From assembly GCF_964355755.1 (NCBI RefSeq), contig NC_092671.1, positions 13,062,501 to 13,126,500 on the forward strand: a stretch of 64,000 nt of DNA, read 5' to 3'. The position numbers and the translations under genes were made by a program. Of this stretch, positions 23,691 through 64,000 are shown piece after piece. The notes beneath the pieces were generated by a model, which ran no database searches, was not told the origin of the DNA, and was given only the letters and a program-made list of their open reading frames with translations. Position 1 is the first letter of the stretch; the number at the start of each line of letters is the position of its first letter. This DNA is from Antedon mediterranea (Eukaryota; Echinodermata; Crinoidea; Comatulida; Antedonidae).

Positions 23691-26600
23691 GACCATTTAA
23701 CCACCATCGACTATATATATTATATTTATTATCTTATAGAGTCATAGTAACTAGATATGTCAAAAAATAAAAGGGTCGAAATTTGGTACTATAGTACAGG
23801 GATTTTTTTAAAAATGGCCAAAATATTGCCTTTGTCAAATTCAATTATTATGCAATAATATTGCCATATATACACATATATTGCGTTATCACCAAATTTC
23901 CCTGTACTATACTGCCCCGTTATGAAAGAACGACTCAACTGCATAAAGCAAAGTTTTGAGATAATCAACAAAACGTGTTCTTGTTTTAGCTCTTCACGTG
24001 TATAGATAATATTATTTTGATTAGCATAATAAACATGCGCAGAGGCGACTGATGGGTTCTGCGCATGTCAATTGTGCTATAGTAACCAGTTTTATCGAAA
24101 AATAAAAAGGTCGAAAATTTGCCATTTTTTGAAAAATCCCTGTACTATATAGTACAGGGAAATTTTCGAAAAATGACCGATTCACGACCCTTTTATTTTT
24201 TGACATAAATGGTTACTATTGCATAATATACATGCGCAGAGACGAATAATGGGTTCTGCGCATGTCAATTGTGCTACAGTAACCAGTTTTGACATAAATG
24301 GTTACTATAGCATTATAAACATGCTCAGAGGCGACTAATGGGTTCTGCGCATGTTAACTGTGCTATAGTAACCAGTTTTATCAAAAAATTAAAAGGTCGA
24401 AAATTGGCCATTTTTAAAAAAAAATTCCTGTACTATAGTACAGGGAAATTTTCGAAAAATGGCCGATTTTCGACCCTTTTATTTTATGACGTAAATGGTT
24501 ACTATTGCATAATAAACATGCGCAGAGTCGAATAATAGGTTCTGCGCATGTCAATTGTGCTATCATAACCATATTTGACATAAATGGCCGATTTTCGACC
24601 CTTTTATATCATATAGCATAATTAAAAAAAAAAAAAGGTCGAAAATTTGCCATTTTTTGAAAATTTCCCTGTACTATAGTAAAGGAATTTTTTTTTTAAA
24701 ATGGCAAATTTTCGACCTCTTTATTTTTTCGATAAAACTGGTTACTATTGCATAATTAACATGCGCAGAACCCATTATTCGTCTCCTGCGCATGTTTATT
24801 ATGCAATAGTAACCATTTACGTTAAAATATAAAAGGGTCGAAAATCGGCCATTTTTCGAAAATTTCCCTGTACTATAGTACAGGAATTTTTTCAAAAAAA
24901 TGGCAAATTTTGGACCTTTTTTTTTTGGATAAAACTGGTTACTATAGCATAATTAACATGCGCAGAACCCATTAGTCGAGTCTGCGCATGTTTATTATGC
25001 TATAGTAACCATTTATGTCAAAACTGGTTACTGTAGCACAATTGACATGGGCAGAACCCATTATTCGACTCTGCGCATGGTTATTATGATACAGTAACCA
25101 TTTACGTTAAAATATAAAAGGGTCGAAAATCGGCCATTTTTCGATAGTACAGGAATTTTTTCCAAAAAATGGCAAATTTTCGACATTTTGTTTTTCCGAT
25201 AAAACTGGTTACTATAGCACAATTGACATGCGCAGAACCCATTTAACGACTCTGCGCATGTTTATTATGCTATAGTAACCATTTATGTCAAGAGTGGTTA
25301 CTATAGCACAATTGACATGCGTAGAACGCATTATTCGACTCTGCGCATGTTTATTATGCTATAGTAACCATTTATGTCAAAAGTGGTTACTATAGCACAA
25401 TTGACATGCGCAAAACGCATTATTCGACTCTGCGCATGTTTATTATGCTATAGTAACCATTTATGTCAAAAGTGGTTACTATAGCACAATTGACATGTGC
25501 AGAACCCATTATTCGACTCTGCGCATGTTTATTATGCTATAGTAACCATTTATGTAAAAAGTGGTTACTGTAGCACAATTGACATGTGCAGAACTCATTA
25601 TTCGACTCTGCGCATGTTTATTATGCAATAGTAACCATTTACGTTAAAAAATAAAAGTGTTGAAAATCGGCCATTTTTCGAAAATTTCCCTGTACTATAG
25701 TAAAGGAATTTTTTTTTTAAAATGGCAAATTTTCGACCTCTTTATTTTTTTGATAAAACTGGTTACTATTGCATAATTAACATGCGCAGAACCCATTAGT
25801 CGACTCTGCGCATGTTTATTATGCTATAGTAACCATTTATGTCAAAACTGGTTACTATAGCACAATTGACATGCGCAGAACCCATTGTTCGTCTCCTGCG
25901 CATGTTTATTATGCAATAGTAACCATTTACGTTAAAATATAAAAGGGTCGAAAATCGGCCATTTTTCGAAAATTTCCCTGTACTACAGTACAGGAATTTT
26001 TTCAAAAAAATGGCAAATTTTGGACCTTTTTTTTTTCGATAAAACTGGTTACTATAGCATAATTAACATGCGCAGAACCCATTAGTCGAGTCTGCGCATG
26101 TTTATTATGCTATAGTAACCATTTATGTCAAAACTGGTTACTGTAGCACAATTGACATGGGCAGAACCCATTATTCGACTCAGCGCATGTTCATTATGCA
26201 ACAGTAACCATTTACGTTAAAATATAAAAGGGTCGAAAATCGGCCATTTTTCGATAGTACAGGAATTTTTTCAAAAAAATGGAAAATTTTCGACCTTTTT
26301 TTTTTTCGATAAAACTGGTTACTATAGCACAATTGACATGCGCAGAACCCATTTAACGACTCTGCGCATGTTTATTATGCTATAGTAACCATTTATGTCA
26401 AGAGTGGTTACTATAGCACAATTGACATGCGTAGAACGCATTATTCGACTCTGCGCATGTTTATTATGCTATAGTAACCATTTATGTCAAAAGTGGTTAC
26501 TATAGCACAATTGACATGTGCAGAACCCATTATTCGACTCTGCGCATGTTTATTATGCTATAGTAACCATTTATGTCAAAAGTGGTTACTATAGCACAAT

Positions 26601-26740
26601 TGACATGCGTAGAACGCATTATTCGACTCTGCGCATGTTTATTATGCTATAGTAACCAGTTTTATCGAAAAATAAAAAGATCGAAAATTGGCCATTTTTT
26701 TAAACAAATTCCTGTACAGGGAAATTTTCGAAAATTGTTT
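23690..26740. repeat. Nested-palindrome satellite, about 20 hairpin units in ~3 kb
   Basis: There are two alternating modules. Module H (~75 bp plus ~10 bp spacer) has arms GGTTACTATAGCA and TGCTATAGTAACC, with inner arms ACATGCGCAGA and TCTGCGCATGT around an asymmetric ACCCATTATTCGAC loop. Module P is a larger foldback, GGTCGAAAATCGGCCATTTT ... CTGTACTATAGTACAG ... AAATGGCAAATTTTCGACC. I count roughly 20 H units between 24030 and 26660. H units before about 24600 have the opposite orientation to those after about 24660. A 1110 bp higher-order copy is visible (24811 against 25921; 25201 against 26311). The short ORFs here are by-products of the repeat. Confidence 0.9.
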
Positions 26741-45700: not shown

Positions 45701-48700
45701 TAACCAACTTTCAACTATTTTCACACTTCCTGTGTAACTTTTTGTGCACTTACTTCCAACATTGCATTGAAATCCTCTTCATTTCCATGTACAAGCACTG
45801 TATTATAAACCTAAATGAAATTTAAACAAGACAAATATTATTCACTTTAGTATTAACAATAGGGAAATAGGGTAATAGTAATACTGTAGTATAAGTACTT
45901 ACTGGGGCTCTGAGATCAGCGGGCAAAATGTTTACATTACTGGCATGATCCTTAAAACGCTTTCTGGCTTCTTCCACAGCGTGCGGATGACCGTTACGTC
46001 CCATGATACGAATAACTAAACTTCTTAACAAGGCATCCAAATGTCCTAGGATAAAGCAATAAATATTCCAAAAATGCATTGTACAAATATCAATACATGC
46101 TATACTTACTAATCATAAAAGTAAATATTTTACATTTTAGGAATCTGATTTACAATAAGTCTATTAACAAAAACATATAAAAGATGCTTTTGATTAAAAT
46201 TTTATCTTATCAAATTGTATTTTAAAGTTATTATTCATGTTATTCCATTATGCAATTGCCTGTGATCTTACCCTCTCCCTCTTTCTTTTCCCATCCAAGT
46301 CTTTCGTAGGTTTTCAAGAACAACTTAGTGACAAAGGTCTGAAGCAGTGTACTGTAGTCAGTGAAGGCTATCAGTGTAGCAAGTGCCCCAAGGTTAGAAG
46401 CAATATCACACCATACAGTGTAGTTAGTCTCAGACTCAAAGGCTTCCATAACTCGCAACGCATCAACCGTACTGGCTGCACCAGCTTTAGCCTGAAAACA
46501 AGTGTATTTAAAAAAAATAATAAAATACTGTTTTTGTGGGTTAAAAAATCATTAAGCTAAATATACAGCATAATAATAGTTCTTTAACTCACACTGTATA
46601 TGTAATTTATCTAAAAAATAAAGTTAAATAACAATTTAAATATATACTTCTCTTTACCAATGCAAATAGATCGCTTTCCAAATTAAGTCTGTCTCTTGGA
46701 GGTAAGGAGCAATCTTTAATACTTGGTATCAAAGCATCCAACATTTCAGATGAGTAATGTGCACGGTAAAAACCAACTGCACCTGGATTTAGCTAAGATA
46801 AAAACAAAACTTTCATAAAAACTGTTTTTATTCACAATGAGTACTATTCGCAATGAGTACTATTTACCATAAGTACTATTCGCAATGAATACTATTCGCA
46901 ATAAATACTATTCGCAATGAATACTATTCACACTGAATACTATTCACAATGAGTACTATTCGCAATGAGTACTATTCGCAATGAGTACTATTCACACTGA
47001 ATACTATTCACAATGAGTACTATTATTCACAATGAATACTATTCACAATGAGCACTATTCGCAATGAGCACTATTCGCAATGAGCACTATTCATAATGAG
47101 TAATATTCGCAATGAGTATTATTCGCAATGAGTACTATTCTCAATGAGTACTATTCGCAATGAGTACTATTCGCACTGAGTACTATTCACACTGAATACT
47201 ATTCACAATGAGTACTATTCACAATGAATACTATTCGCAATGAATACTATTCGCAATGAGCACTATTCGCAATGAGCACTATTCGCAATGAGCACTATTC
47301 GCAATGAGTACTATTCGCAATGAGTACTATTCGCAATGAGTACTATTCGCAATGAGTACTATTCGCAATGAGTACTATTCGCAATGAGTACTATTCGCAA
47401 TGAGTACTATTCGCAATGAGTACTATTCGCAATGAGTACTATTCACAATAAAGACTATTCGCAATAAGTACTATTCGCAATGAATACTATTCACAATGCA
47501 TCCTATTCACAATGAATAGAGTACACATTCTTATATACTGTCTGGTGTTACTCACCTTCACCCATCTTCCTTCTTTCATAAAAACTGTTTTTTCACAATG
47601 AATAGTATTCACAATGCATACTATTCACAATGAGTACTATTCACATTGAATACTATTCACAATGAGTACTATTCGCAATGAGTACTATTTACAATGAGTA
47701 CCATTCACAATGAGCACTATTTACAATAAATACTATTCGCAATGAATACTATTTGCAATGACTGTTCACAATGAGTACTATTCACAATGAATATTATTCG
47801 CAATGAATACTATTCTCACAATGAATACTATTCACAATGAGTACTATTCACAATGCATACTATTCACAATGCATCCTATTCACAATGAATAGAGTACACA
47901 TTCTCATATACTGTCTGGTGTTACTCACCTTCACCCATTTTCCTTCTGGAACATCAAGAGTAACAGAATCTGAAGCTGTGCTTAGAACAAATTTATGAGC
48001 CACTTTTGAAGGATTGTCACTGGTTATGACAGATATTGGTACTTCCCAAAACTTTTCTTCTCCTGCAAGACAATGCCAAAAATGTTAAAAAATTACAACA
48101 CTAGGCCGAAACAATTTGGTTTACAGTCACCCAAACATATTTCCAGAGTGTGAACTCTGATTAGCTTGGACGTAAATTTATATGTGATACCTGATTGTGG
48201 TTGAATTGCATTGAACTTTGACTGAGAGACAGTCAAGACACGAGATGAACCTTCTTGTTTTGAGGTTACTTTAAGAACGGGGAAACCCATCTCTTTTGTC
48301 CATGCATTCATGATACGTCCAACTGGTTTCGATGATGCTTTTTCTAGACTCTCCCAAAGATCTTCGGTGAATGCATTTGAGTATTTGAATTTGGTAAGGT
48401 ACTGATTCAATCCAGTTTTGAAGTCCTGAATGCAATGAAATACTTATTTTTTTATGTGACATGTTAAAACAATTAATGCAATGCAGATTTGTTTTTTAAC
48501 ATGAATATAAAAAAAAGTGCATTATGAATAAGTTATTTATCACTTACATCATCTCCTATATAGTCATGTAACATTCTGATAATAGATGCGCCTTTGCTGT
48601 ATGAGATCAAATCAAAGATTTCATCAATTTCATCAGGATGTCCAACTGGAACCTACACATGATTCAAATTAAGATAAATTAATTGAAAAAGAGTACTTAC

Positions 48701-53990: not shown

Positions 53991-56900
53991 TTAACTTACA
54001 TTATCAATGTATACTGAAGCAGACTTATCAACAAACTCTTCCAGCTTCATTATAGATCCTTGATCTTTTCCTAAATATATTGCCTAAAAAAAAGTTATGA
54101 CGGTAAATTATTAATTCACTATGCCCTCAATGAATAATAATTGGATGGCAAACATTAGGTACATGTACAAGGTTTGTTTAAAAACAATTACTTTCTTTTA
54201 AAAGGGCGAGTTCAATACACATACTTGCATGCACCAAAGACTTCTTATTTCCAAATTTTGAGAAAATATAATTTATAAAAGATAGAACTGTAGGTTAAGT
54301 TTCAAAATAATTCAAAAAATATTATCCTAATAGGATATTATTTTTTGGTCCTGGGCCTATTTTATAATCGGGATCATTAACTTGAAGAAACAGTTACACT
54401 CAGTACTTACACTATTCATGGCTTTCTCTAATTCTTTTGATCCCAGCATAGATCCTGCCTCTAGCACACTAGTATTACAATAAAAAATGTAAAAACACAT
54501 TCAGACAATTGTTCACCAGTTTAGAGAATTACAGTAGGAAATTTCAAAATAAGAACATTTGTAAAAAAAAATAGAAAACAGTAATTCTTATCCTGTAAAA
54601 GTCAAGAAGTAAAATTAAGAACAAAATACGTACTATGTTTGTGTAGATGAAGGAATGGCGAGGGAACATGCTAGTTGTTTAAGTGCACTCGTGCATAAAC
54701 AGCGGTTGGCCGAGTTGCTTGCATTAATGTCCATGACCTTATACAGATTTGTAGTTTCACTAATGTATTCTAAAACATTTTAAAGAGATTCTGTATATTA
54801 TTTATTCAAGAATTAGAAGCATGCCATTAGCGACAATTAATTAAAAATATACAGTATTAACTTAATCAAAATGAACGATGAAAACTTACCAGTGAATACA
54901 AAACATGCAAGCACTCCAGAATGAAAGATCTGAAAAGAGACCACCTCATAATCACGACAACAGATCTTCTTGATCAACTTCTCAATTTGCACACTTGGAA
55001 CATCTCTAAAGAAAGGTGCCATGTAGTAAATTAAAAAAAAAAACTCATTTAAAATATCACATAGGACAAATCAAAGATGCTGTTAGCACTGTGTCGTAAG
55101 ATAAATCTAAGTAAAGCTAAACTAATACAGTGTTTTATCTGGTACCGTACACTGTGTAACATATTTACAATGGTTCCACGTAGCATTGCTTACAACGGAT
55201 ATTTATGGAAGTGACTATCCGGATTTACCAGTTGTAACTTTGCTATGTTACATAGTGTCCCAGTTAAACATTATCTTTAACCTTTGTAAAAAAATTATGT
55301 TAGCAGAATAGTGACATACTTGCAAATCATGCTCAGCAAATCATGAAAGGCAGTTCCAGAAAACATTTTTCCCTTCTTCTGAGCTAAGGAAAAGCAAAAT
55401 GTAAAACATTATAAATAAGAGTCACCCTCATATAAGATTACATTTTGTTGGAATTGCAATAAGGTAGTGTGTAAGTAGGCTAATGCTAAAATGATATAAG
55501 TTGTCATGCATAAAGACAATAGGCAATGTGGTAAAAAGAGGTCTAAATATAAACAGTCTTAGTGCTTAGTTTATAATTTGCAAAATGCTAGTAGAACCTA
55601 TAAAGTGGTTTAATCCGCTAGCTGCTATACTTTACTTTATAAAAAAGGCAGTTTTTAAACAAAATTCTCATAAAAAATATGTCATTCAAATTTTTTTAAT
55701 TACAACATTTATAGGTTTGAGATAAAATGCTGGCTGTATCAAATATCAACATACCTGTGCTTGGATACAAAATGTCATAAGCCGCGATAACATTACTCTC
55801 AAATGTAACTCGACTGTAGTGAGATAATGTCAACTCCTGATAGGCACGTCTAATGCGGTTGGATTTGTGATCCATGTTTTCAAAGCTACAATACAGTGAA
55901 AGGAGAAGATCAATCAAATAATTATGAAATTATTTCAAGATTAAGGTCAAATATACAAAATATGATAACAATATATTTAGTAAGATTAGGAGATTCAGTT
56001 TACTTTACTTACTGTTGAGCAAGAAATCCCAAAGCATCTTCAGGTTGATTTTCTACCAGCTTTGTTAATGCATATCTCATCTGTTTTGTTACACCATTTT
56101 TTTCTACAATATAATAAACATATTGAAAACATTTAGTACTAGGAGTAGGCCTAGTGCTTTTGTTTTAAATCTTTGTAGTAGGCCTACATTACTAATACTA
56201 CTTAATATTCAGAAACAGGAATCCAAGTATGAAGTCAATAATTAAAATAATTCTTGTCGTTTTATAGCTAGGTAGACTTTATATTTATTAAGGACTAGAC
56301 CTTTGATATATTTCTCCAAGTAAGTTTACTCTATAAAGCGAAGACACGATAAACACTGTCTGTGCCGGTCATACAGTACTAATCTACACCTGGTAGGCTT
56401 GTGGAAATTCAACTTCTATACATTTTTTTTTTCTAATCCAGAAACAAGTTAAAATCAGTAAAATCATAAAGATATATTTTCCCCCTGAAAAAATAATTTT
56501 TTAAATGTTTTTGTTGAATATGCTATTGTCACATAATAGTATTCAAAAAGTGGATCTAAACAAAATTATTTACCTGAAAAAACTGTAATTAACAAAAAAA
56601 ATGGACTGGAATTCAATGGTTTTTTTGTTCAATTTTAACCATTTATCTTTTTATATATTCATATAAATAAAAACATTCTTTTTTTATTTGATTTTCTACA
56701 GAAGTATTTAACTTTTTCAAAATTGTTCAAAGATTTTTTTTACAAATCTTTATTTTTTGATGTTTTTGGGGACAATACACATTGAATTTATGCTTTGACC
56801 AGAAAAAACCTCACACAACATCAAGTTGGCCCCAAGTCAAGTTGGCCCCAAGTCAACTCGGCCTCACGTCAACTCGACCAAAAAATAATCGGTCAACTCG

Positions 56901-59900
56901 GCCCCGTTATAGTATGGAACGCAAAAAGTGCAAATGAAGGGGATTGATAAAATAATATTTCTTCACAATTTTTTAACTATGAATAATTAGACAATATATT
57001 TAGCAAAAAAAATAGGAATGATTTCACCAACTTTTATTTATTTACGTTTAATAAAATTTCCAATCGCACAATTGAAAACAATTCGTAGCTGCGCCTCCCT
57101 GCGCCTTTGGCAGCTTTTTCGATATCTACAACTGCTACGTGTTTTCGCTGACCGGGGGATTCCCCCTTTTTTGATTTACTAAAATGCGGTACCTGCACGT
57201 GTTTTTGTAACGCGCGGGTACTTCTATTCATATCGGAAATGAGTTCATTTTTTTATATGATATTATTTAATTATATTATATTTTTTATTTCTTCATTTTT
57301 TTTAAAGCGTGGATAGTAAGAATCATAATAATATTAAGCACTTTTTGCGTTCCATACTTTATTGTGGCCGAGTTGACCGATTAGTTTTTGGCCGAGTTGA
57401 CGTGAGGCCGAATTGACGTGAGGCCGAGTTGACTTGAGGCCGAGTTGACGTGGGGCCGACTTGACGTGGGGCCGACTTGACTTTGGCCGAGACGGTTTGG
57501 GGCCGACTTGACCACCTGCACCCGACCCAGGCCAAAAAACGTCATTTATCACAGAGGGCGGTCTTCAGTTTCAGAACTAACCTTAGGCCCCTAATCAGTA
57601 TTTTGACATTTTTCACGTTAAAAATGTATAGGCCTAATCCGTACAATTAAATATCACAATAACATTAAATATAATTTTAGCATATACTTGATAACATTTC
57701 ACTTCATAAAGTCCTACCGGATCCTACCGGGCGTAGATTAGTATGACCCGTCTGTCCTGGATCGCTAGCTGCTATAGCCTATGCCATACTCCCGGGGAAC
57801 AGACGATCGGGACCACGGTCGATCGGGCCCAGAAAACGTGGGCCTTGATCGTCTTACCAGTTGGGCCCGATTGTCCAGTGTTTTCAGAACCACTTTGGGC
57901 CCGATCGTCTTACCAGTTGGTCCCGATCGTCTTAGCGTTGGGCCCAATAGTCTTTTGTGGATCGATCCTCTTTTGTGTTATATAAAATAATGTGCCACAT
58001 TTCATCATTTTTCATTCCTAGTGCTAGTGTCAACGTGCTTTTCTTGCGTAAATTAAGATTTTAATTAAAAAGGTTAATTAGATTTTTTTCTGATTTTATC
58101 ATAATTTTCCCCTAGGCCTAATTAACACGGATTACGGTCGAAGCGGCCGCCAACTAAAGCGGCCGCTAGTTCAATAACGGTAATACATATGGAACGCCGT
58201 GTGCGCTTTGATTGTCGTTGTTTTGTAATCTTTGATTGTCATTGTTTCGACAGGTTTTCTTTACCTCGGACGTAAATAACAATCTACATTATTATGTAAT
58301 TTATTCTCTTTTTTTTTACAGATTGAATGTGATACGCGTACGTTCTTTTAAACGAAATGGCGAATCGATGATTACTTATTTTAACTGTTCTAAATGATAT
58401 ACATATGTTTAATAAAGTCTATAAAATACATTGTGGTGTTTATATTGTATTTGTATATTAATATAATATAATAATAAGCCAATTATTAAGAATTATATAT
58501 AAATAAACCAATCAATAAAGTATATCAAAATATATAAATATATTAATAATTAAAAATATTTGTTATTGTATATTAATTAATTAGTAAAGTAACTAGAAGT
58601 GTTCGCAATCATAATTTAATTACAATAACATGATGACAGAAATTTATTTAATATCCTACACTATTTTATTACTTCAGATATTTAAATATTGATCAATTGA
58701 AAATGAGTTTTAAATACTAAAATAAGATGAAAGTGTCTGTTTGATACGGTAATTAATTACGCGAATTTCTGCTAATAACTCGACTGACGGCCAGCAATAG
58801 TGCTGCTGCACATTAGGTGCGCGTCCCATGTTGCTTTATTGAAAACACAAACAATGTATTACAATGGAATAACACTTAAATGTATAACACACCCTATTAC
58901 TAATAATAAAAACCAAGATTCGATAGTACAGTATGTAAATGAGATATAAATATTCGGCAATACCGTACGTAAATTATTATTGCAATACTGTATAAAGATT
59001 CGATAGTATGTAAACAAGATATAAATATTCGGCAATACCGTACGTAAATTATTAATGCAATACTGTATAAAGATTCGATTAAGTCTGTAAATGAGATATC
59101 AAGATTCGGCAATACCGTACGTAAATTATTAATGCAATACTGTATAAAGATTCGATAGTATGTAAAAATGAGATACTGTATAAAGATTCGGCAATACCAT
59201 ACGTAAATTATTAATGCAATGCTGTATAAAGATTCAATAGTATGTGAACGAGATATAAAGATTCGGCAATACCGTACGTAAATTATTAACGCAATACTGT
59301 ATAAAGATTTGATAGTATGTAAAAATGAGATATAAAGATTCGGCAATACCGTACGTAAATTATTATTGCAATACTGTATAACGATTCAATAGTACATATG
59401 TCAAATGAGATATCAAGATTCAGCAATACCGTACGTAAATTATTATTGCAATACTGTATAAAGATTCGATAATATGTATTGTAAACAAGATATAAATATT
59501 CGGCAATACCGTACGTAAATTGTTATTGCAATACTGTATAAAGATTCGATAGTACATATGTCAAATGAGATATCAAGATTCGGCAATACCGTACGTAAAT
59601 TATTAATGCAATACTGTATAAGGATTCAATAGTATGTAAAACGAGATATAAAGGTTCGGCAAAATATATTTCGATAGTTAATACTAATAGTAAATACAAA
59701 TAAAATATACATTGATTTATCGGCAGGCAAACTTAATTATTATAGAAATATAAAGATTTGATAGCTGTAACTCAACTCGCCATAGGCCATGGTGTTGACA
59801 ACGATAATCAAAGATTAAAGCGCACATGGCGTTCCATACAAATGACGATATTAAACTGGCGGCCGCTTTGGTTGGCGGCCGCTTCGACCATACTCCGGCC

Positions 59901-62361
59901 TAGCTAGGCTACTCTACTATAGTAGGGAATTACGATCATCTCGGTCGCGTTTCATTTCAGTCGCGTGTCAATTAAGGTCAATTTTCAACAATACCGATCG
60001 TGGTGTATGGCGCGTCAATTATGCATAAAGCATACGAAAATGGATGCTATTGTAGGATTGAGACTTAACTGTCCGATTTAACTCTCTTTCAGCACTCGGT
60101 ACGTGTAGCAGTTTATTATTTATTTATAAACCTGTTTGCATTTGTAACGATTTTTATCTATATTTTAAGGACACAACAAGTAGCTTACGAAGACGACTCT
60201 AATAGGTTAATAATTATGAATGAGTAAATTGGGAATATTTGTTTGGTGCCAGTTAAAATCAGTGAGAGACTTTACTGAGCTTTTTTATACACTATATTGC
60301 ACTGAAAGATATTATTACGATTATGTATGTAATGTAACATTTTTTTAAAGCATAATGCATTGACGTGTCGCATTATGTCATTATGCCTAATATAATCCCT
60401 GTTTATTAAGAGTGTTGCAAATACTTCAACTCTACCTCTTAATCGGGCTGCTGCATGAAGAGAGTCAGAATGTTCACATCACAATGGAATTAGTTCATCG
60501 CGAAGATGTTGACCGGCTTCAGCGACAAGCTTACCGACGTGCAACTAGAACGCTCTTACGCCTCTGGGACGAGTATCGCGCAGGCCAACGATCAGAGAGA
60601 TCGCTCCTTAAGCTGGATCGCGCGTTATATCAAATGATGTTCGTGATTTGTAGATGAGATAGATGTAAATAAATAGATAAATTAAATAACGTCTGTAGAT
60701 GTAAATAGAGGTGAACATTGTTAATAAAAAAAACAGTAAATACATAGATACATTAAATAACGTTTGTAGATGTATTGTAAATAAAAAGGTTTCAATTTGA
60801 ATGATGAATGTAAACATTTGTATATGCGTTTTTGTTTTAAAAATTAAAGGATTGAATTGAAAAACAGTGTGAATCGAGGTTGTTTTGCATTACATTAACG
60901 TATCTATGTTTTGTTTTTAAATATATGTAAATATTTGTGTATATGTTTTTGTTTTAAAAATAAAAAGATTGAATGATCATTGACAAAAGTGTAAAGTGAG
61001 TTTGTATGTTATTTTTCCCGTCAGAAACAAATAGAATATTTACAAAATATATCAAAATATATTGCTTATAGGCCTAAAAACATTTAAAAAAAAGTTAAAC
61101 TAATATTAATAACATACTGTTTTTACAATTTTATTTAAATATAATGATTATTATATAAAATCATTTTTAAATAAACACCTAAAAAGAGACTACACTTCGA
61201 TCTTTAATTAGAGCTTACAGTGTACAGTACTGCATTGAGCGGCGTTCCATAGAAATCGCCGGTTCGATTTCCCGGAAGCGCGACCGAAATGAAACGCGAC
61301 CGAGATGATCCGATACCATAGTAGGTAGGGTGCAGGTCAAGTCGGCCCCAAACCGTCTCGGCCAAAGTCAAGTCGGCCCCACGTCAAGTCGGCCCCAAGT
61401 CAACTCGGCCTCAAGTCAACTCGGCCTCAAGTCAACTCGGCCTCACGTCAACTCGGCCAAAAACTAATCGGTCAACTCGGCCACAATAAAGTATGGAACG
61501 CAAAAAGTGCTTAATATTATTACGATTCTTAGTATCCACGTTTTTAAAAAAATGAAGAAATAAAAAATATAATATCATATAAAAAAATGAACTCATTGCC
61601 GATATGAATAGAAGTACCCGCGTGTTACAAAAAACACGTGCAGGTACCGTATTTTAGGAAATCAAAGACGGAGGCCTACGTTCCACCATTTGGCCATAGA
61701 AAAAATGATCGTACATCGTTTTTGTGCATGATTTGCGTTTTAAAAAAAGGGGAATCCCCCGGTCAGCGAAAACACGTAGCAGTTGTAGATATCGAAAAAG
61801 CTGGCAAACGCACTACAGGGAGGCTCAGCTACGAAATGTTATTAAACGTAAATAAAGGAAAGTTGGTGAAATCATTCCTATTTTTTTTGCTAAATATATT
61901 ATTGTCTAAATAATAATATTCAATTATTCATTAAAAGTCAGAATTATTCATAGTTAAAAAATTGTGAAGAAATATTATTTTATCAATCCCCTTTATTTGC
62001 ACTTTTTGCGTTCCATACTTTAATGGGCCGAGTTGACCGATTATTTTTTGGCCGAGTTGACGTGAGGCCGAGTTGACTTGCGGCCGAGTTGACTTGAGGC
62101 CGACTTGACTTGGGGCCGACTTGACTTTGGCCGAGACGGTTTAGGGCCGACTTGGATCGAAACCTAGTAGGTAGGCTAGGCCTATAGACTAGAGACTAGC
62201 TATACCTCAAATAGGCTATTTATTAGGATAGGCTTAAGCTGGTTGGTTCAGTATCCCTATATATTATTAAATTATAATAAAATACCAAGAAATTCTTTAT
62301 CCGAGTCCTCTTTTTCGTTTCTTGAACTTTGGCGTCTGCTGCTGCTGCTGCTCCGATCCAT
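53991..62361 (-). CDS. TPGS1: Tubulin polyglutamylase complex subunit 1
   Basis: Non-catalytic subunit of the TTLL1 tubulin polyglutamylase complex, acting on axonemal and neuronal microtubules (family knowledge). Eight exons, minus strand: 62361-62286, 56103-56013, 55885-55755, 55383-55320, 55005-54890, 54769-54634, 54468-54411, 54083-53991. Phases agree; 254 aa (human ~290). Exon 1 starts MDRSSSSSRRQSS (CTG/CAG repeat coding Ser) and ends KEDSDKEFL; exon 2 continues EKNGVTKQM, matching the family's acidic lead-in to an RIIa-like dimerisation segment (ALTKLVENQPEDALGFLAQH, FENM). Later marks: KKICCRDYEVVSFQIFHSGV, LEAGSMLGSKELEKAMN, MKLEEFVDKSASVYID. The end IDNVS then TAA is read straight through a GTAAGT; AATAAA follows 20 bp later (53970-53965). 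Splicing to a further exon is possible. Intron 1 (6.2 kb) is packed with repeats. Confidence 0.92.
56821..57520 (-). mobile_element. Iteron-ended inverted-repeat element, family 1, copy A
   Basis: The ends are degenerate tandem words of the type GGCCGAGTTGACGTGA and GGCCGACTTGACTTG, running inward to TATGGAACGCAAAAAGTGC on both sides (56912 and, inverted, about 57352). The interior is AT-rich with one small ORF (57034-57231). It lies in inverted orientation to copy B (61331-62155). The left terminal array is shorter than the right. Confidence 0.8.
57034..57231 (-). CDS. Small ORF inside element copy A, unknown
   Basis: 65 codons, basic, starting MNRSTRALQKHVQV and containing KKGESPGQRKHVAVVDIEKA. 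The same protein segment recurs in copy B, where 26 extra residues sit between KSK and KKGESPG and a one-base change in an A-run shifts the start of the frame. Not recognised; no transposase signature visible. Confidence 0.35.
   Translation of the reverse strand: MNRSTRALQKHVQVPHFSKSKKGESPGQRKHVAVVDIEKAAKGAGRRSYELFSIVRLEILLNVNK
57720..57970. repeat. Iterated GGGCCCGATCGTCTTACCAG words
   Basis: Three to five diverged copies of TTGGGCCCGATCGTCTTACC-like units with inverted variants (GACGATCGGGACC, CGATCGGGCCC) at the left. Composition and layout resemble the terminal arrays of the neighbouring elements, but no partner end was found, so this may be a solo end or a small foldback. Confidence 0.6.
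58136..59889. mobile_element. Iteron-ended inverted-repeat element, family 2, with internal satellite
   Basis: The left end GGTCGAAGCGGCCGCCAACT and the reverse complement of the right end GGTCGAAGCGGCCGCCAACC match. Both continue into a second GCGGCCGC and then TATGGAACGCC(G/A)TGTGCGCTTT, about 90 bp per arm. The interior is AT-rich without a convincing ORF and holds a ~77 bp tandem array (58917-59660). 1754 bp in total. Confidence 0.8.
58917..59660. repeat. ~77 bp tandem repeat inside element family 2
   Basis: The word CCGTACGTAAATT (one copy CCATACGT) begins at 58963, 59038, 59115, 59198, 59272, 59349, 59429, 59509 and 59589: nine units, period 74-83 bp. Unit core: GCAATACTGTATAAAGATTC then GATAGTATGTAAA. 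A reading frame open across it on the minus strand is a repeat artefact. Confidence 0.92.
59934..61310. mobile_element. Inverted-repeat element, family 3, with a small arginine-rich ORF
   Basis: The left end GATCATCTCGGTCGCGTTTC... matches the reverse complement of the right end over 31 of 32 bp. The terminal words are CGGTCGCG repeats. The subterminal GGCGTTCCATA (about 61241) is the reverse complement of the TATGGAACGCC motif of families 1 and 2. 1377 bp, with an ORF at about 60484-60657. Confidence 0.8.
60484..60657 (+). CDS. 57-codon arginine-rich ORF in element family 3, unknown
   Basis: Starts MELVHREDVDRLQRQAYRRA and is predicted helical and basic (about one residue in five is Arg). 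It is much richer in GC than its AT-rich surroundings and has an in-frame ATG upstream at 60412. Stop TGA at 60655-60657. An AATAAA-rich stretch follows. Not recognised; composition argues against a chance ORF, but it is unproven. Confidence 0.4.
   Translation: MELVHREDVDRLQRQAYRRATRTLLRLWDEYRAGQRSERSLLKLDRALYQMMFVICR
61331..62155 (+). mobile_element. Iteron-ended inverted-repeat element, family 1, copy B
   Basis: The left array (61335-61485) has words GTCAAGTCGGCCCCA and GTCAACTCGGCCTCA; the right array (62025-62155) is its reverse complement. TATGGAACGCAAAAAGTGC lies inside each array (61491; inverted at about 61999-62017). TAGTAGGTAGG occurs just outside both ends (61319 and 62166), a possible target-site duplication. 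The interior carries the frame-damaged small ORF. Confidence 0.85.
61638..61913 (+). pseudogene. Small ORF of element copy B, frameshifted relative to copy A
   Basis: Open from MQVPYFRKSKTEAYVPPFGH through KKGESPGQRKHVAVVDIEKA. The N-terminal part corresponding to copy A (MNRSTR...) lies in another frame because the A-run at about 61627 has one more A than in copy A. Contains FLCMICV, absent from copy A. Function unknown. Confidence 0.35.
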
Positions 62362-62448
62362 TCGAAATGTTGTAAACAAAACAAAGATTATGGAACGCCA
62401 CGACTGCCTTCAGCACGTTCCTATACATTATCAAAAAATACATCTTCA

Positions 62449-63904
62449 TCTATATATAAATTTACGTAAGGGCAAAATTCGATAAATCGCAGTTTATTTC
62501 TAGAATTTTTAGTCGATGGTATATAAAGTTGGTTCGTACTTTCGGTACTGATTTTAACCATCTGATGTAACCATGTTTACTAATTAAATTGAGTTAGATA
62601 ATTAGTTATTGACAATTAAAACGAATTTAGGTTCAACGATTTGCCCCAAATAGGGTGTTTCGTGGTCGTGGTATACACTGTCTAATGGATGTCTAACTTG
62701 AAAAATACCCGCAGACAATAATGCAAGGATGCTTCGCATTTTCCTATCTCCTCCTACGATAATTGTTTTTAATAGCTGAAAACCGGTTGAACAGCTCGAG
62801 TACAGCATCATAATGTTGAAGACAGGCCGATTTTCTTTAAAAAATACTATTTTGATAGATTTAATATACGTTTATACAAATGTTTTGATCTGCGATAAAT
62901 GGAACATTCCAATCTCTGTTCCACAAGTGTCTATTCCCTCAGGCGTCGTAAAGACAAGTACTGTACAGTCATAACAGAAATTCGATACATTTTTTTCCAA
63001 TCTGTGGAATCCTTTTTTTTTAACGCATAATGAGCTAGCCTTTCCAGTCGCCGTCTATTATGTACAATCAACTTTATTATTGCAGCTAAACCACCACCAA
63101 CATCACCACCCTCCCCTCACTGGCATGTGTAGCGTTGTAAAGTCAGTAGAGGACAGGCCTACAGTACGAATGATCAGTACATGCCCTAAACGCAGAACAA
63201 CTTTGGTGGTTAGGAAACAACTTAATTTTCAATACAAGTTGGGTAGCATAATTGGCTCTATGAAACACTTGACCATTAGGCCTACTAATTAAGTTGAGTT
63301 AGATAATTATTTATTGACGATTAAAGCGAATTTACGATTTGCCGCGATTAGAGGTGTTTAATATATTACTGACAGTTCCTTCTGAACGTTTGTAATCATG
63401 TAACTTCAAAAAAATATAAACGTCGTATTAGAGTGATGTATCGTTACATGTACTGTACTATTTCAATCGACTATGACGGTGACAGTTTCAACAAAGTATT
63501 AAATCGCAATGTTTTACTGTGTTTACTGGTATATTATTTGTAAAACATGAAAACAATTCATATTTCGTTACTAAATCGATAAAGAATATATTTAAAAATT
63601 GTTCGTCTTTGCATCCATCCTCTTCCCCATCCCTCAACCCAAATGTTACATACAAAACACAAATTCAGTTTGTTTCTTATTTTGTGACAAACTTCATTTT
63701 CGGAAGTAATTCCCGGGGTGCTAATTTTAGTTGAGTACATAAATCACCGTGTCTATTTATTCGTTCCTGTAAACAACATGTATTATTGTCCTGCATGTGC
63801 ATTTGAAGTCGCCAGTTTTTTAAACGCTGAAATTACTATGTATTCGAGAACCATCTGTGGGCACGACCTAGATGGTACGCGAGCGAAGCGAGCGTACCAT
63901 CTAG
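62449..63904 (+). mobile_element. Non-autonomous helitron-like element, copy 2 (full length)
   Basis: Begins TCTATATATAAATTTACGTA after an A and ends CTAG before a T, with a GC-rich hairpin at the 3' end: CTAGATGGTACGC / GCGTACCATCTAG around GAGCGAAGCGA (63868-63904). A 5'-TC, a 3' hairpin with CTAG, insertion between A and T, and no terminal inverted repeats are helitron traits. No Rep or helicase ORF, so non-autonomous. Unusually, the CTAG is part of the hairpin. Confidence 0.65.
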
Positions 63905-64000
63905 TCTATATAAATTTACGTAAGGGCAAAATTCGGTAAATCGCGCCTTACTTCTAGAATTTTTACTCGATGGTATATAAAGTTGGTTCGTACTTTCGGT
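63905..64000 (+). mobile_element. Helitron-like element, copy 3 (cut by window end)
   Basis: TCTATATAAATTTACGTAAG follows directly on the CTAG of copy 2 and matches its first ~95 bp closely, so the two are joined head to tail with no spacer. The remainder lies beyond the window. Confidence 0.65.

Follow-up and report, generated by a model that had tools for sequence, protein, structure and literature searches.

The 10-bp motif TATGGAACGC recurs in eight families of transposable elements in the genome of Antedon mediterranea, and in the three families that we found in the window (the whole 64-kb stretch of DNA analysed) it is not where cutting happens. Our preferred reading, to which we give a probability of roughly 45%, is that in all eight families (F1 to F6, T and T2) the motif is a protein-binding site that non-autonomous elements of Foldback/Mutator-like and IS3EU-like type have in common and that is distinct from the sites at which they are cleaved. 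The cutting enzyme is probably not the protein that reads this signal.

Elements and target-site duplications

Three non-coding families of inverted-repeat elements, all of them multi-copy, are represented in the window by four copies, two of F1 and one each of F2 and F3 (Table 1). A preliminary description of this DNA had reported three GC-rich-bounded element types, and their tandem words and the eight motif copies are all present. It had also placed the motif near at least one end of each type, which we observed on both sides in F1 and F2 and on the right side only in F3. The elements themselves stood, but their exact limits did not, as paralogues moved them to the positions in Table 1.

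Table 1. Features of the motif-bearing elements, with positions in the window
Feature	Position	Strand	Remarks
F1, first copy	56821..57523	-	inverted relative to the second copy; extreme left end lost
Motif TATGGAACGC in F1, first copy	56913..56922	+	
Motif TATGGAACGC in F1, first copy	57347..57356	-	
Tandem iterons, F1, first copy	57390..57512		16-bp unit GGCCGAGTTGACGTGA
F2	58129..59896	+	GCGGCCGC words; ends GGATTACGG...CCATACTCC, set by paralogues
Motif TATGGAACGC in F2	58188..58197	+	
Tandem repeats, F2 interior	58915..59662		unit of ~80 bp
Motif TATGGAACGC in F2	59829..59838	-	
F3, left target-site duplication	59919..59926		ATAGTAGG
F3	59927..61317	+	CGGTCGCG words; ends GAATTACG...CCGATACC, set by paralogues
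Motif TATGGAACGC in F3	61242..61251	-	right side only
F3, right target-site duplication	61318..61325		ATAGTAGG
F1, second copy, left duplication	61319..61327		TAGTAGGTA
F1, second copy	61328..62164	+	ends GGGTGCAGG...GATCGAAACC, set by paralogues
Iterons, left arm of F1, second copy	61336..61461		
Motif TATGGAACGC in F1, second copy	61492..61501	+	
Motif TATGGAACGC in F1, second copy	62008..62017	-	
Iterons, right arm of F1, second copy	62050..62135		
F1, second copy, right duplication	62165..62173		TAGTAGGTA
Eighth motif copy	62389..62398	+	extended form TATGGAACGCC-ACGA-CTGCCTTC; outside the reported elements
F4			end GGGTAGTAAC; element only ~1.9 kb
F5			end GGGTGTGTAG
F6			end TACGGTGGCC; TACGG outer end
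T			TATGGAACGCCGTTTACG
T2			TATGGAACGCCTCCTCTGCC

Both GGCCGAGTTGAC elements of the window belong to F1. Among the other scored copies of this family, 29 of 39 begin at query position 9 and 26 of 39 end at position 845. The inverted arms of the second window copy are 97% alike, and CCTGCACCC, at the right end of the first copy, corresponds to the left end of F1. F1 and F5 have long inverted arms that contain tandem repeats; the arms are only ~95 bp long in F2 and 32 bp in F3. A search by eye of the window copies revealed no target duplication around the first F1 copy or around F2, whose relatives mostly have one of 8 bp, and the F3 copy keeps its 8-bp duplication. Due to TAGG repeats, the duplication of the second F1 copy can be read as 9 to 11 bp; its relatives have 8 bp.

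For F1, F2, F3, and T, duplications were checked by script at fixed termini on fetched ends. F2 and F3 gave the same counts, with a duplication of 8 bp in 8 of 10 copies each, of 9 bp in one, and none in one; an eleventh F2 copy has, by eye, the duplication GAATAGAC. F1 copies carried an exact 8-bp duplication in 6 of 10 cases and no exact one in the other four, one of which (L107) appears to have a mutated duplication (TTCTAGGCC/TTCTAGACC). T showed 6 bp at all three loci, as did T2 (3/3), and F6 showed 6 bp in both copies, one readable as 7 bp. F5 had 10 bp in all four copies, one readable as 11 bp. Four of the eight F4 copies tried could be resolved, three with an exact 9-bp duplication (one readable as 11 bp) and one with a mismatch. 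The outer ends are thus true transposition ends, and the length of the duplication is particular to each family and varies little within it. Multiple copies, paralogue-defined ends, and mostly 8-bp duplications thus bear out the earlier view of F1, F2, and F3 as genuine mobile families.

Other repeats were observed in the window. GC-rich iterons of a 22-bp unit, GGGCCCGATCGTCTTACCAG, lie at 57730-57990 without the motif and perhaps mark a further inverted-repeat element beside the F1 copy; a similar word flanks one F3 copy elsewhere (L070). Downstream of the eighth motif copy, the window contains no exact inverted partner for it. The stretch that it opens (62389-64000) holds two direct-repeat pairs (62453/63907 and 62578/63283) and may be where another motif-ended element, extending past the window edge, has its left end. 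Large tandem arrays occupy 24022-26658 (89/270-286 bp units) and 46829-47888 (~66 copies of a 16-bp unit), and a minus-strand frame at 45.8-46.1 kb has sub-threshold similarity to ERAP1_C.

Distribution and position of the motif

The window holds 8 copies of TATGGAACGC against 0.07 expected. Across the 354-Mb genome (18 contigs), we counted 3,124 copies (1,580 + 1,544) versus 149 (86 + 63) for the reversed word; the motif is far more frequent than chance and recurs across families. The motif with its next base, allowing at most one mismatch, gave 10,337 matches genome-wide versus 1,459 for the reversed 11-mer. Among the matches listed, a forward motif was frequently followed by a reverse one about 1 kb on, which is the signature of inverted arms.

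We compared 87 distinct contexts, namely the 100 listed matches on contig C1 (of the 3,124), which cover its first ~8.9 Mb, together with those of the window and with duplicates dropped. Eight recurrent families emerged, with F3 represented by the window copy only. First-look candidates genome-wide numbered 542 for F1, 201 for F2, 57 for F3, 1,395 for F4, and 197 for T, of which at most 40 per family were scored. Five further contexts (L091, L092, L095, L096, and L099; C1 ~8.09-8.45 Mb) are dispersed copies of one sequence bearing the 10-mer, in which the following base varies, unlike in the transposon families.

Single linkage grouped the 87 contexts into 24 loose clusters, with some families merged. 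With one representative taken per cluster, the base at +11 is C in 16 of the 24, and GC stands at +18/19 in 9 of the 24, where 15 control offsets gave 0 to 3. The pattern kept across families is therefore longer, TATGGAACGCC-N6-GC, and the signal spans ~19 letters. The form TATGGAACGCC-N4-CTGCCTTC has 224 occurrences genome-wide (117 + 107) and its reversed counterpart none (0 + 0), and N4 takes ten different forms in the 100 matches listed. Conserved letters are thus broken by free ones, and this bipartite motif looks like a bound DNA site. In the diverged arms of the inner hairpin of F4, the motif lies within one of the longest well-kept blocks. The preliminary description had seen no sharing between element types outside the motif, which nearly holds, except for the conserved C and GC and a loose likeness in the outer 21 bp.

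As the families were selected for containing the motif, they share it by design. Independent support for the motif therefore comes from its excess across the genome, the C and GC that flank it, and the fact that the families lie side by side in the window. We found no report of the motif as a transposon feature in a search of the freely accessible literature; Repbase may already include some of these families.

The position of the motif differs widely between families when the distance of its first base from the outer end is measured in one representative of each. This distance is 165 and 148 bp on the two sides of F1, 60 and 59 in F2, 283 and 284 in F5, and 348 and 409 in F6; it is 67 in F3 (right side only) and 374 in F4, where a one-mismatch inverted partner is present in 7 of 8 copies. 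The motif of F1 to F6 thus lies 59 to 409 bp inside the end, and in F1, F2, F4, F5, and F6 it points inward as an inverted pair. In T and T2, the motif is itself the terminus (position 1 on both sides), extending the range for all families to 0 to 409 bp, and each of the 40 T copies scored has both of its ends exactly there. None of 38 contexts of F1, F2, F4, F5, and F6 inspected by eye (diverged F4 context L046 excluded) contained an element starting at the inner motif, and we rejected on this ground the idea that both arms are usable as ends.

Transposase genes and coding copies

The preliminary description had proposed looking for a long autonomous copy with a transposase, and our limited search found none. 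The window elements have short open reading frames, the longest (161 codons) lying in the tandem repeats of F2, and inspection of these copies by eye revealed no MULE-type transposase frame. A tested F3 frame gave no match to Pfam, and no transposase could be made out by eye in the additional 2 kb that the longest listed F3 copy contains.

The genome itself contains 11 matches to Mutator-like transposases, 11 to the Merlin-like PF12762, and 77 to the IS3EU-like rva_4. All seven PF20700 loci are more than 12 kb from typed motif-bearing copies, and no PF12762 locus lies within 12 kb of one, the typed copies in both comparisons being only part of each family. Between 62 rva_4 places and 256 listed motif-bearing copies, there were four pairs within 12 kb, against about one expected by rough arithmetic, at distances of 1.5 kb (an F2 copy), 4.4 kb (a T copy), 10.1 kb, and 11.6 kb. 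The two nearest rva_4 places, C3:19247494 and C3:15568653, respectively, are possible leads to autonomous elements. In the first 8.86 Mb of C1, the four rva_4 places present are 22 to 171 kb from any exact motif.

Two candidates for autonomous copies were rejected. The parts analysed (2.0-2.3 kb) of three long T2-ended spans showed no IS3EU-type integrase by eye; their translations gave a Gypsy-type frame in one, a LINE-like fragment in another (L146), and no long frame in the third. The Gypsy-type frame is a long polymerase frame at C1:38968000-38970000 (L148). F4 was considered as an autonomous Mutator element, but the PF20700 frame lies outside the ~1.9-kb F4. At this place (L035/L036; C1:2464000-2480500), a THAP domain, the PF20700 Mutator-like frame, and a sub-threshold P2RX7_C-like frame stand close together with F4 copies inserted alongside, perhaps as the remains of an autonomous element from another family.

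Interpretation and comparison with known systems

The elements are non-autonomous, Foldback-like inverted-repeat DNA transposons, and their own outer ends and nearly constant duplication lengths indicate that copies are mobilised as units cut at these ends. Judged by anatomy and duplication length alone, F1 to F5 (8, 9, and 10 bp) would depend on transposases of the Mutator/Foldback type; for T, T2, and F6, which have 6-bp duplications and TAYGG ends, the mobilising enzyme would be of the IS3EU type. We suggest that TATGGAACGCC-N6-GC may be the binding site of one sequence-specific protein exploited by all families, and it is presumably not the cutting site of F1 to F6. Because the site crosses family borders, its binder would have to be either a host factor, such as a transcription factor or other DNA-binding protein that works inward from the arms, or a DNA-binding module that several transposases have in common. 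A promoter protein is a further candidate. Each family's own transposase probably uses the tandem GC-rich words as secondary binding sites, as shown for Galileo. Weighing against a shared site are the T and T2 motifs, which start exactly at the terminus and fit the IS3EU TAYGG end, as would not be predicted of a free-standing host site, as well as the four F1 copies lacking an exact duplication and the failure to find a binding protein, a transcript, or an autonomous element. A narrower proposal, that transposons of two or more superfamilies in this genome all depend on one host-encoded or domesticated protein recognising TATGGAACGCC-N6-GC, having converged on this internal site for expression or assembly, is doubtful.

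The main rival to a shared binding site is that TATGGAACGCC is an IS3EU-like terminus, as in T and T2, outside which F1 to F6 gained new iteron-bearing ends, so that the old end is now a relic or secondary site. T and T2 do have the motif as their exact terminus and duplications of 6 bp, which matches the published descriptions of IS3EU ends (PMC10045372, PMC12730594); F6 combines a TACGG outer end and 6-bp duplication with a motif deep inside; and F1, F2, F4, F5, and F6 carry the motif as an inward-facing inverted pair. However, this history requires independent events in several families, each keeping only ~19 bp, and the motif of F3 is on one side only. A 6-bp direct repeat flanks the inner motif pair in none of 11 cores (at most 3 of 6 positions match), on which ground we rejected an IS3EU-like core nested in a Foldback shell. 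In 8 of the 11, the flanking 6-mers instead form inverted repeats with 5 or 6 matching positions; the number is 4 in one F1 core, 3 in one F6 core, and 2 in the F2 core. Together with the 38 contexts in which no element begins at the inner motif, these findings leave a buried end possible but unlikely. If it were correct, the families would record an outward growth of inverted arms and a change of enzyme.

The preliminary description suggested that one undescribed transposase may recognise the motif and mobilise all families, which the sharing of the motif and the mostly 8-bp duplications and loosely similar ends of F1 to F3 would suit. Duplications of 6, 8, 9, and 10 bp, nearly constant within each family, together with unlike termini and a motif 0 to 409 bp from the end, make this improbable for the whole set, as cut positions and duplication lengths that differ so much do not let the motif define one cutting enzyme. 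F1, F2, and F3 by themselves may still share one enzyme class, since 8 bp is the prevailing duplication length in all three and there is a loose resemblance over their outermost ~20 bp; the outer 21 bp share 10 to 13 matches between these families versus 6 to 11 with F4, F5, F6, T, and T2, counted as the best of five offsets and with overlapping ranges. Chance or amplification, in which a 10-letter word happens to lie in several high-copy families, is less probable still. With families of 542, 201, 1,395, and 197 candidates, few chance events could give thousands of matches, and our ranking by family number covers the motif alone among 10-mers. Against it, the 87 contexts fall into 24 loose clusters across which +11 and +18/19 are conserved, and in 200 Markov shuffles no 10-mer occurred in more than five of the eight families versus all eight for the motif (by which the families had been chosen). 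The letters of the motif include ATG and could be read as a coding start (ATG GAA CGC, Met-Glu-Arg), but frames close soon after it in F4 and T and it stands in both arms of non-coding elements, so that we give this reading almost no weight.

If the proposal of one host-encoded or domesticated protein held, TATGGAACGCC-N6-GC would be a genome-wide hub common to unrelated mobile elements. Enzyme, end, and duplication length are what define a superfamily; a motif crossing these definitions would mean that unrelated transposons depend on one common factor.

The complement of the motif, GCGTTCCATA, corresponds to the 3' end of U6 snRNA, probably by coincidence, and C, the usual next base, presumably differs from U6. 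Among the literature matches to the 10-mer that were listed, most concern small-RNA expression, judged by title, and may contain it as primers; a single match to the 11-mer in connection with transposition is a paper on Vibrio. Dada elements have 6- to 7-bp duplications, lack terminal inverted repeats, and insert in small RNA genes; membership in Dada and Dada-like targeting of U6 were both rejected, as the elements described here have terminal inverted repeats and varied flanks. The duplication length of Merlin (8 bp, with an IS1595-type transposase) fits F1 to F3, and none of the 11 PF12762 matches lies within 12 kb of the typed copies, which are part of each family. Sea-urchin TU elements have inverted arms whose outer domain is made of short tandem repeats, with middles that vary, a likeness by description only.

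Further likenesses come from other described systems. Tm1 of root-knot nematodes has duplications of 8 to 10, mostly 9 bp (PMC3169594), and the MULE Muta1 has duplications of 8 or 9 bp (PMC5225508). Like the families described here, these Mutator/Foldback elements have composite inverted arms with internal tandem repeats, 8- to 10-bp duplications without clear sequence preference, and many non-coding copies. Duplications in the Mutator/Foldback range of 8 to 11 bp were found in F1, F2, and F3 (mostly 8), F4 (9), and F5 (10). Unlike in Mutator/Foldback elements, no MULE transposase was found within our copies, and the motif also occurs in another duplication class. IS3EU/GingerRoot elements have TA..TA ends with 6-bp duplications, and TAYGG..CCRTA ends in fungi (PMC10045372, PMC12730594). 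T, T2, and F6 resemble them in both features; F1 to F5 do not have this combination, and the window families differ in their GG or GA ends and mostly 8-bp duplications. We linked no IS3EU-type integrase to the motif. Galileo of the P-element superfamily (PMC3688188) has transposase sites at ~70 bp and at 561-718 bp from its end, and two of these sites fall within tandem repeats. It shares with the elements described here long, internally repetitive arms and sites well inside the end, binding at our motif being putative. The sites of Galileo bind its own transposase, whereas the motif here spans families with different ends. By analogy, Galileo is the nearest demonstrated parallel for such inner sites.
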